From Candidatus Cloacimonetes bacterium HGW-Cloacimonetes-1 (GTDB lineage: Bacteria > Cloacimonadota > Cloacimonadia > Cloacimonadales > Cloacimonadaceae): a stretch of DNA of 55,121 nucleotides. Positions 12,340-28,271 of the stretch are shown piece after piece; position 1 is the stretch's first letter; each line of letters opens with the position of its first letter. The notes beneath the pieces are model-generated. The model worked only from the letters and a program-made list of their open reading frames with translations, made no database searches and was not told the DNA's origin. Where the stretch lies: the NCBI GenBank assembly GCA_002841975.1, contig PHBQ01000005.1, positions 1 to 55,121 on the forward strand, read 5' to 3'. The position numbers and the translations under genes were made by a program.

Positions 12340-12414
12340 GCTAAACTACTTTCCTTTGTGTCTTGAGTATTTTGCCCATTCACATTGCACATTTTGCGCC
12401 GTAGACAAAAAAAA

Positions 12415-12510
12415 TGCCAGGCGAACAGCAACACACGACTAACAATGCTTAATGCTGCTTCATTCCTGATCTGACATGATTCACACGTAGCCATTGTGCT
12501 GTACCTGGCA
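12415..12510 (-). ncRNA. ffs: Small signal recognition particle RNA (4.5S-type)
   Basis: Read on the minus strand, the 22-base segment 12475-12454 matches the domain IV core of bacterial SRP RNA, with GTCAG, a GGAA tetraloop and GAAGCAGC at the expected spacing. Compared with the E. coli core (recalled from memory) only three bases differ, and two of these convert the tetraloop-closing C-G pair to A-U, a compensatory change. The ends pair: 5' TGCCAGG.ACAGCA with 3' TGCTGT..CCTGGCA, giving a closed rod of about 96 bases without an Alu domain, followed by eight U's (12414-12407) that can terminate transcription. The RNA binds Ffh and targets proteins to the membrane. A 60-codon frame across it (12518-12336) is not credible. 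Confidence 0.93.
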
Positions 12511-25357: not shown

Positions 25358-25559
25358 TTACTGTCCCCCATATTTATATCTTCGTCCATCAATACACTTT
25401 TCCACTTAGTGTCAAGAAGATTCGTGAAACAACCTGCAATCACATGGAAACAGAGACAAGTGTTTTGTCATGCAATATTAGACAGATGCTTACAAATAAA
25501 ATCCTTTACAAATATGGAGTATAGGGAATCTTGGTTTACAAAATCTACAGGAGGCTGTA

Positions 25560-25829
25560 ATGGCACTGAACCAAGATGTAAAAACAGCTATCATGGCAGA
25601 GTTTAAACTCCATGAGTCAGACACGGGATCACCAGAGGTCCAAGTAGCACTATTGTCTCAGCGTATCAAAGATATCACTGAGCACCTTAAGGTACACAGA
25701 AAGGACTTCTCGACCAGACGCGGCTTATTAAAGCTGATCGGTCAACGTCGTCGCCTGCTTGATTATATGAAAAGTAAGGATATTAATCGTTACAGATTTA
25801 TCATCAAGGCACTCGGAATTAGAAAGTAA
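25560..25829 (+). CDS. rpsO: 30S ribosomal protein S15
   Basis: An 89-residue protein, the usual S15 length, which binds 16S rRNA helices 20-22 in the small-subunit platform. Conserved blocks are seen: SDTGSPEVQVALLSQRI, LTxHLKVHRKDFSTRRGL-like helix (here EHLKVHRKDFSTRRGL), LIGQRRRLLDYMK and the end YRFIIKALGIRK. An AGGAGG ribosome site precedes ATG 25560. It is followed by pnp, as in many bacteria, with two strong hairpins in between. The 202 bases upstream (25358-25559) should hold the promoter, but I could not pick a convincing one. Confidence 0.98.
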   Translation: MALNQDVKTAIMAEFKLHESDTGSPEVQVALLSQRIKDITEHLKVHRKDFSTRRGLLKLIGQRRRLLDYMKSKDINRYRFIIKALGIRK

Positions 25830-25848
25830 TTCTGTCCTGTTAATTGCG

Positions 25849-25887
25849 CTTGAACGAAGTCCGATTTTACATCGGATTTCGTTTGAG
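25849..25887 (+). promoter_or_regulatory. 17-bp mRNA hairpin after rpsO, possible RNase III site
   Basis: Arms 25849-25865 and 25871-25887 pair over all 17 positions (three G-U) with loop TTTAC. It is followed by CAAACGATC with no T-run, so it does not look like an intrinsic terminator. Position between rpsO and pnp fits a processing or stability element. Confidence 0.72.
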
Positions 25888-25965
25888 CAAACGATCTAGT
25901 AAGTAAATAGTGTGAGTCTAATATTAGGTTACTACCTATAGTTCCCTAATTCAATTACAAATTGC

Positions 25966-26028
25966 CGGGAGAAATGAGCAATAAGCTAAAAGGAATTGCA
26001 TCTTTTCAGCCTATTGCTTCTTCTCCCG
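25966..26028 (+). promoter_or_regulatory. Long imperfect hairpin in the pnp leader
   Basis: CGGGAGAA (25966-25973) pairs with TTCTCCCG (26021-26028); GCAATA with TATTGC and AGCT..AAAAGG with the CTTTT.CAGC side continue the stem, about 24 pairs in all with a six-base loop. It ends 20 bases before pnp ATG 26049, just ahead of the AAGGAG ribosome site. No T-run. Similar placement to the RNase III-cut leader that lets PNPase control its own mRNA in E. coli. Confidence 0.72.
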
Positions 26029-26048
26029 ACCAGTTCTAAGGAGAACAG

Positions 26049-28271
26049 ATGCATAATTTTAACATCATCAAAAAGTCGATCACAAGTTGCGGCAGAGAAT
26101 TGACGGTTGAGACCGGCAGAATGGCAAAGCAAGCAAACGGTGCTGTATTGGTCACATATGGCCAGACCACTGCATTGGTAACTGCTACCATGGGTAAGGA
26201 ACCAAACTTGGGAACAGACTTTTTCCCACTTACAGTAGACTTTATAGAGAAGATGTACGCAGCCGGAAAGATTCCCGGCGGTTTTTTTAAGAGGGAGAGT
26301 AAACCTTCTACAGACGCAACTCTGAATGCTCGTCAAATTGATAGAGCCATTCGTCCTTTATTTCCAGAAGGATTCAGAAATCCTGTTCATATCGTTATCA
26401 ACATTTTGTCTTACGACTGTGTTAATGATACTGCGATAGTCGGGATGCTCGGTGCCTCGCTTGCATTAGCAATTTCGGACATTCCTTTCGACGGTCCTAT
26501 CGCCGGCGTCTTAGTAGGCTATATTGACGATGAACTAGTTGTTAACCCTTATCTGGATGTTTTGAAAGAGAAATCAAAACTCAATCTTTCCATTGCCGGA
26601 TCAGATCATTCTATCTGTATGATTGAATCTGCTGCTCATGAATTGCATGAAGATATAATGCTGGAAGCAGTGTTCACTGGTCATGAAGAGATCAAGAAGA
26701 TCGTCGCAATGCAAAAAGAATTTATCCTGGAAGCAGGCAAAGAAAAGATCACTCCTATATTGGATGTCGTGCCTACCGAAATCATGAACAAAGTCGAAGC
26801 TAAATTTGCAGACAAGGTCGCAGTAGCAGCCATGGTCAAAGGCAAGCATGAACGTCAAGATGCTTTTGATGCTGTTGAAGCTGAGATGGTGGAATTCTTC
26901 ACTGCGGAAAATGCTGAAGAATATACAGGAAATGTACGTTTCTTCGCTTTGGCATTCCATGAATTGATTCGCAGATATGTTCGTGATTCCATATTGCACC
27001 ACAAGTTACGTGCAGATGGACGTGATTTGGACGAGCTTCGTGACATCACTTGCGAAATCGACGTATTGCCGATAGTGCACGGAACAGCCTTGTTCACTCG
27101 TGGAGAGACTCAATCACTTGGCGCTCTTACCTTGGGTGGTGGAAGCTCCGAACAGATTATTGACAACCTGGAAACAGAACATAAGAAAGCTTTTTACCTT
27201 CACTACAACTTCCCACCTTTCAGTGTTGGTGAAGCTGGAAGAATGGGACCTACCGGGCGTAGAGAATTGGGTCATGGAAACCTTGCCGAGCGCGCGTTGC
27301 TACCCATCTTGCCTAGTAAAGATGTCTTCCCATACACTATGCGTATTGTTGCAGAAACGCTTGAATCAAACGGTTCATCGTCGATGGCATCAGTATGTAG
27401 CGGTTGCCTTGCAATGATGGCTGCCGGTGTACCTATCAAAGCTCCTGTAGCCGGTATTGCTAATGGCTTGATCATGGAAGGCGACGAATATGTAGTCTTA
27501 ACAGATATCATGGGCTTGGAAGATCACCTTGGCGACATGGACTTTAAGGTTGCCGGAACTCGTGAAGGTATCACTGCCATGCAGATGGATATCAAAATCA
27601 AAGGCATCACCAAAGACATTATGAAGATTGCTTTGGAAAAAGCGAACAAAGCCAGAAACCAAATCCTAGATGTTATGGCAGCTACAATCTCAGAACCAAG
27701 AGCAGAATTATCTCCTACAGCACCTAGAATCGAATCATTCAAGGTTCCTATTGATAAGATAGGAGAGATTATAGGGCCCGCCGGGAAGATGATTAAATCT
27801 ATCATCGAGAAAGCTCAAGTCCAAGTCGATATCCAAGACGATGGTACCGTGAGAATCCTTTCTCCTGATGGAGCTTCAATAGAAAAAGCCAAAAAGATGA
27901 TTTATGGCATCACCCATGAGCCGGAAATTGATGAGCAATTTAGCGGTCCTGTCACACGGATAGAAGCCTATGGTGTATTTGTGAAGATACTTGATGGCCT
28001 CAAAGAAGGTATGGTGCATGTATCACAGATGCATACCTCCAGAATAAATCATCCACTTGATATGGTCAAGCTTGGCGACATCGTTAACGTTAAAGTTATC
28101 GGTATGGAGAAAGGCAAGATTGCTCTTGCTATGAAAGGTCTTCCCGGAAACCCGGAACCTGATCCCAATGCTCCACCACAACCTTACGAACCTTCAAGCA
28201 GAGACCGTGACCGCGGACCCAGCAGACCCTTTAACGGACGTGGTGACCGCAACGACCGCAATCGTCGCTAA
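26049..28271 (+). CDS. pnp: Polyribonucleotide nucleotidyltransferase (PNPase)
   Basis: A 740-residue 3'-5' phosphorolytic exoribonuclease, a trimeric cytoplasmic enzyme of mRNA decay. Two RNase PH-like halves are visible: the first with AKQANGAVLVTYGQTTALVTAT and GGFFKRESKP, the second with DGRDLDELRDI, FTRGETQSLGALTLG, FPPFSVGEAGR and SNGSSSMASVCSG. A KH domain (about 558-620, IGEIIGPAGKMIK) and an S1 domain (about 625-692, RIEAYGVFVKI...GMVHVSQM) follow. The C-terminal tail is Pro-rich then Arg/Asp-rich (SRDRDRGPSRP), probably disordered and RNA-binding. A clear AAGGAGA ribosome site is present. It sits between rpsO and ahcY, only 9 bases ahead of the preferred ahcY start. Confidence 0.98.
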   Translation: MHNFNIIKKSITSCGRELTVETGRMAKQANGAVLVTYGQTTALVTATMGKEPNLGTDFFPLTVDFIEKMYAAGKIPGGFFKRESKPSTDATLNARQIDRAIRPLFPEGFRNPVHIVINILSYDCVNDTAIVGMLGASLALAISDIPFDGPIAGVLVGYIDDELVVNPYLDVLKEKSKLNLSIAGSDHSICMIESAAHELHEDIMLEAVFTGHEEIKKIVAMQKEFILEAGKEKITPILDVVPTEIMNKVEAKFADKVAVAAMVKGKHERQDAFDAVEAEMVEFFTAENAEEYTGNVRFFALAFHELIRRYVRDSILHHKLRADGRDLDELRDITCEIDVLPIVHGTALFTRGETQSLGALTLGGGSSEQIIDNLETEHKKAFYLHYNFPPFSVGEAGRMGPTGRRELGHGNLAERALLPILPSKDVFPYTMRIVAETLESNGSSSMASVCSGCLAMMAAGVPIKAPVAGIANGLIMEGDEYVVLTDIMGLEDHLGDMDFKVAGTREGITAMQMDIKIKGITKDIMKIALEKANKARNQILDVMAATISEPRAELSPTAPRIESFKVPIDKIGEIIGPAGKMIKSIIEKAQVQVDIQDDGTVRILSPDGASIEKAKKMIYGITHEPEIDEQFSGPVTRIEAYGVFVKILDGLKEGMVHVSQMHTSRINHPLDMVKLGDIVNVKVIGMEKGKIALAMKGLPGNPEPDPNAPPQPYEPSSRDRDRGPSRPFNGRGDRNDRNRR

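Follow-up and report, generated by a model that had tools for sequence, protein, structure and literature searches.

Two hairpins in the rpsO-pnp gap

The window, that is, the whole stretch of DNA analysed (55,121 nucleotides of contig PHBQ01000005.1, from Candidatus Cloacimonetes bacterium HGW-Cloacimonetes-1), carries rpsO and pnp in tandem, with two hairpins in the gap between them. The features of the locus, in order, are as follows.

25560..25829, plus strand: rpsO (ribosomal protein S15), an 89-aa open reading frame; the upstream partner of pnp in a presumed operon
25848..25888, plus strand: hairpin 1, an rpsO terminator-like stem of 18 bp with a 5-nt loop, lacking a T-run here
25966..26028, plus strand: hairpin 2, a conserved pnp-leader RNA element of 25 pairs in four helices, recognized by its fold z-score, covariance model R1 and covariation
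25977..25983, plus strand: 5' strand of the hairpin 2 core, AGCAATA
25984..25984, plus strand: A of a 1x1 mismatch, adjoining the core and opposite C at 26011
26011..26011, plus strand: C of the same mismatch, opposite A at 25984
26012..26018, plus strand: 3' strand of the core, TATTGCT
26038..26043, plus strand: Shine-Dalgarno sequence AAGGAG of pnp, identified from the sequence and lying outside hairpin 2
26049..28271, plus strand: pnp (PNPase), a 740-aa open reading frame preceded by hairpin 2

From the rpsO stop (25829) to the pnp start (26049), the gap measures 219 bases, and the region with its flanks folds at -82.1 kcal/mol (z -7.7). A first-pass annotation of this DNA had described two strong hairpins here, a 17-bp stem at 25849-25887 and a stem of about 24 pairs at 25966-26028. 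Both are far beyond chance (z -7.6 and -5.7), and the description was right to within a base or two, as the stems measure 18 pairs at 25848-25888 and 25 pairs in four helices. The same annotation gave the size of the gap correctly but overstated matters in saying that the hairpins fill it, since the two together take up some 104 of the 219 bases. It was also right that neither hairpin is followed by a terminator T-run; the sequence has none after either, and a terminator scan of the region returned no hit. Only one other unbroken stem of at least 14 bp (loop of at most 10) was found in the 55-kb window, and shuffled sequences gave 0 to 2; this other stem lies at 1556-1593, with an unbroken 17 bp and a loop of 4 bases. 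The window also contains a bacterial small SRP RNA on the minus strand (12412-12510; RF00169, 71 bits).

Full-length relatives of pnp are present in most genomes searched, and wherever the extent of the contig permitted, rpsO was found directly 5' of pnp, with a gap ranging from about 43 to about 570 bases. Several further features of the locus were observed. At 25515-25616, 5' of rpsO, the ribosomal S15 leader model scores below its threshold (RF00114; 29.9 bits, E 5e-5), and a diverged but real S15 autoregulatory leader is likely because weak RF00114 matches recur at rpsO in seven relatives. In many relatives of family f1 (for example, L005, L007, L016 and L019), the sequence around the pnp start is GAAGTTATGCATAACTTC, an 18-base perfect palindrome enclosing the ATG; the window lacks this palindrome and has a small GTTCT/AGAAC hairpin over the pnp Shine-Dalgarno sequence (26033-26046). 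One relative (L008, genome G014) carries three near-identical tandem copies of AACATAGGCTT(T/C)AGCCTGTTCGT between hairpins 1 and 2.

Hairpin 1 resembles an rpsO 3' end

Hairpin 1 consists of 18 consecutive pairs, 3 of them G.U, and folds at -26.1 kcal/mol (z -7.55), with no shuffled sequence folding as well. Its sequence is not conserved. A stem of differing sequence usually follows the rpsO stop in relatives, typically AAAGTGGATC...GATCCACTTT in the window's family and AAAAGGGGA...TCCCCTTTT in other families, and many relatives have a T-rich tail after it, among them the nearest one (L003), where the tail reads TTTTTAC. A rough count, taking stems of -10 kcal/mol or better followed by at least 5 T in ten bases, gave about 26 such loci; this figure is approximate because the automated finder detects unbroken stems only, and it missed or misplaced hairpin 1 in several relatives. 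The window's own copy fails the intrinsic terminator test of a G+C-rich stem with a T-run, its tail being AAACGATCTA. Because of its position and sequence variability, we infer that hairpin 1 represents an rpsO 3' end or terminator, perhaps leaky in the window's copy. The first-pass annotation had made it part of the pnp control element, a role that does not suit the positional counterpart of the rpsO terminator-like stems of relatives.

Hairpin 2 has an invariant core and covarying stems

Hairpin 2 folds at -31.0 kcal/mol (z -5.73), more stably than any shuffled sequence, and scores 73.7 bits against model R1. It is stable in every relative that carries it and always lies near the pnp start, the distance from core to start being mostly 29 to 39 nt. 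Among the 77 copies extracted, a number that leaves out 10 loci missed by the start-codon rule of the extraction, both AGCAATA and TATTGCT are identical in 76; the sole exception (L052) has changed both sides together, so that GGCAATA pairs with TATTGCC. The 1x1 position beside the core is likewise kept, as A.C in 62 of the 77 copies and as some non-standard pair in 74. Counted by distinct loci, 47 of 53 have the core just 5' of pnp.

The pairing was examined in a MAFFT alignment of 43 loci, which was not fitted to any structure. Here, 92.8% of cells are paired, the covariation reaches 0.346 (shuffles, 0.114; slid partners, no more than 0.136), and both sides have changed in nine pairs. The outer stem was assessed separately because it is out of register in this alignment: outer arms paired with their own partners at -13.3 kcal/mol, compared with -9.3 kcal/mol for swapped arms, and 0 of 300 swaps within families matched the own-arm pairing. 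The apical arms likewise pair better with their own partners than in within-family swaps (0 of 300 as good). The compensatory changes that the first-pass annotation had proposed looking for are thus present in hairpin 2, and the stem pairing itself, beyond the sequence, is under selection. On this comparative evidence, hairpin 2 is a conserved cis-acting RNA with strongly covarying inner and outer stems.

Two inverted 7-bp half-sites that hardly vary could also be read as a DNA operator palindrome for a transcription factor. We consider this extremely unlikely, as the spacing between the half-sites varies from 22 to 79 bases among the copies, while the arms between and beside them show the covariation of a stem.

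The element could also act from the other strand, as an antisense small RNA of the kind annotated in the E. coli rpsO-pnp gap (SraG). The A.C mismatches become G.U pairs on that strand, the window's antisense sequence folds at -37.9 against -31.0 for the sense, and antisense folds better in 32 of 41 copies of the window's family; in family f9, however, it is the sense strand that folds better (25 of 29). Because the energies gave opposite signs in the two families, a count of G.U against A.C was substituted for the energy comparison, and the apical stem has 87 G.U and 29 A.C on the sense strand, which fits an RNA read from the pnp strand. R1, which was built on the sense strand, scores 73.7 in sense and 43.9 in antisense. 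An antisense function therefore seems very unlikely to us.

The element is confined to pnp within one order

In Cloacimonadota, a phylum of uncultured bacteria, R1 matches 87 of 125 genomes (55 of the 71 good ones), and pnp follows directly after every copy whose context was checked; in several genomes with no match, the pnp region is missing from the assembly. The exact pattern picks out 63 stretches in the GTDB collection, 44 in Cloacimonadota and 19 elsewhere. All 44 of the former precede pnp, by 22 to 58 bases, and none of the 19 is near pnp, several of them falling in simple AAGCAATAAGC repeats. With a looser pattern, each Cloacimonadota genome has about one match, usually at pnp; some twenty others are scattered, and the reversed-pattern control has four. 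Hairpin-forming simple repeats of AAGCAATAAGC and GCCTATTGC unrelated to pnp were seen at L087, L103, L104, L126, L128, L130 and L136, on contigs from Flavobacterium, Chitinophagaceae and Dyadobacter.

Hairpin-rich repeats occur in many bacteria, and the core words do turn up in simple repeats of Flavobacterium and Chitinophagaceae, so that a mobile or repeated element which happened to land at pnp has to be considered. R1 finds a single place in the window's genome, and this refutes the idea there; throughout, the element is single copy per genome and at pnp, and no further copy in the window's genome or the phylum was convincing. A second R1 match in genome G024, examined closely as a possible extra copy, proved to be tRNA-Leu. 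We leave a mobile origin a negligible probability.

Nearly all members of the order carry the element, which is missing in families f3, f6, f7 and f11; the sister order (families f12 and f13) has rpsO-pnp and lacks it. On the PNPase tree, the element changes state four times, which is consistent with one gain within one order and three losses, although the backbone has moderate support and the direction of gain versus loss depends on the root. In some sister-order genomes (L159, L160 and L162), the gap holds an insert of about 400 to 500 bases whose long inverted ends (CACAAAATCACACAAAAAAACAC) flank coding-like sequence resembling a GxxExxY-type protein; it looks like a small mobile element.

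In family f11 (L046, genome G046), a different long hairpin, TTTTGAATTTTCC...GGAAAATTCAAAA, replaces the element at the same place. Such a replacement, together with the stability of hairpin 2 in each carrier and its constant closeness to the pnp start, would suit a passive stabiliser, in which a structured 5' end or a 3'-end barrier protects the pnp mRNA or the upstream rpsO fragment. But a barrier has no need of an invariant core, nor would it be expected to be confined to one gene per genome, and we judge this explanation unlikely.

A proposed role in setting the PNPase level

Hairpin 2 probably serves to regulate PNPase production, as unlike hairpins at this position do in E. coli and Streptomyces. 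We propose that it is a cis-acting 5'-leader element of pnp that would set the PNPase level post-transcriptionally, through a cut by RNase III and self-limitation by PNPase; by analogy with known leaders, we give this complete scheme about an even chance of being right. The relevant transcripts would be those that read through hairpin 1, acting as an rpsO 3' end or as a terminator that leaks, or those that start between hairpins 1 and 2. RNase III would cut the stem of hairpin 2, PNPase would recognize and degrade the freed upstream strand, and the shortened pnp mRNA would be translated less or decay faster, so that PNPase limits itself. Most probably, the invariant core has a sequence-specific reader that guides or adjusts this process: PNPase itself, a locally selective RNase III, or some other protein.

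RNase III substrates are about two helical turns in length, and the stem of roughly 25 pairs is long enough. The enzyme was found in 70 of the 71 good genomes, including G000, whose pnp lies in the window (TIGR02191, 231 bits); its presence is weak evidence because lineages without the element have it as well. Given the position and length of the stem and the gene it precedes, RNase III cleavage with PNPase autocontrol is, by analogy and conservation, the likeliest use of hairpin 2. However, E. coli RNase III sites have no strong consensus in common (PMC8708148); therefore, RNase III alone fails to explain the invariant core, and an additional sequence-specific reader seems to be implied. More specifically, the AGCAAUA/UAUUGCU duplex with its A.C mismatch may be a signal in double-stranded RNA that PNPase or a dedicated protein recognizes by its sequence, giving a PNPase feedback unlike the sequence-indifferent E. 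coli RNase III route; we put this forward tentatively, at rather less than even odds.

The same near-invariant 7-bp core and kept mismatch exceed the needs of a general double-strand cutter, and hairpin 2 might instead be the site of a sequence-specific RNA-binding protein, possibly a non-cutting PNPase or another regulator, which governs the translation or decay of pnp mRNA independently of RNase III. A paper cited in PMC10362022 indeed announces in its title an autogenous translational repression of E. coli pnp that does not depend on RNase III. The candidate reader protein is only putative, though, while a long, regular stem is what one would expect of an RNase III substrate, and similar leaders in other bacteria are RNase III targets. 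A role for such a protein without RNase III is possible, but we think it rather improbable. As for masking of the Shine-Dalgarno sequence by the freed 3' arm, the complementarity exceeded that of letter shuffles; we do not claim such masking because the complementarity did not exceed that of swaps in the window's family and the predicted loss of accessibility was mostly unspecific.

Comparison with known pnp leaders

No Rfam family reached its threshold at hairpin 2, where only miRNA models at chance level appeared, and searches of open-access texts, which do not cover subscription papers, returned no description of the element. It is a well-supported RNA family that had not been catalogued before and has no entry in Rfam 15. 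A precedent is the Actino-pnp RNA motif (RF01688), a conserved structured RNA of Actinomycetales (Weinberg et al. 2010, PMC2864571) that is classed as cis-regulatory and named for pnp. None of 123 genomes of the phylum reached the RF01688 gathering cutoff of 47.7 bits (best, 18.6 bits), and the window had no match between 25500 and 26100 at E values up to 5.

In E. coli, RNase III cuts the pnp leader stem, after which PNPase degrades the strand so released and thereby reduces its own expression (Jarrige et al. 2001, as cited in PMC10362022 and PMC3997798). The first-pass annotation had pointed to an E. coli-like layout, and this likeness holds: the order rpsO, terminator-like stem, long leader stem, Shine-Dalgarno sequence and pnp is the same, with hairpin 2 covarying and linked to pnp. 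The E. coli stem differs in being longer, having a large internal loop and lying further from the start codon. Descent from a common ancestral stem failed its test, since R1 gives no match in the E. coli leader and the element falls within one order, with none in the sister order. The suggestion of an ancient control loop shared with E. coli thus falls; given the apparent single origin in one order and the absence from the sister order, hairpin 2 would be a lineage-specific counterpart, which belongs with the pnp-leader regulatory RNAs but probably had an origin separate from that of the E. coli stem.

RNase III is reported to repress PNPase in E. coli, Borrelia burgdorferi, Streptomyces coelicolor, Streptococcus pyogenes and Campylobacter jejuni (PMC8708148), and such control of pnp in a further phylum would be unsurprising because it is already reported in these five widely separated bacteria. 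In S. coelicolor, RNase III cuts a hairpin that also lies between rpsO and pnp and lowers pnp expression (PMC10126417); there, the cut is at a 4/4 internal loop, whereas cutting of the Cloacimonadota hairpin is a proposal.

The present element brings an uncatalogued RNA family to the few pnp-leader elements on record, and does so in a phylum whose molecular biology has hardly been studied. Its near-invariant duplex core, few natural losses and one hairpin replacement make it a testable case for what reads a specific RNA duplex. Alongside the E. coli, Streptomyces and Actino-pnp examples, it suggests more than one origin for the structured control of PNPase at the rpsO-pnp junction.
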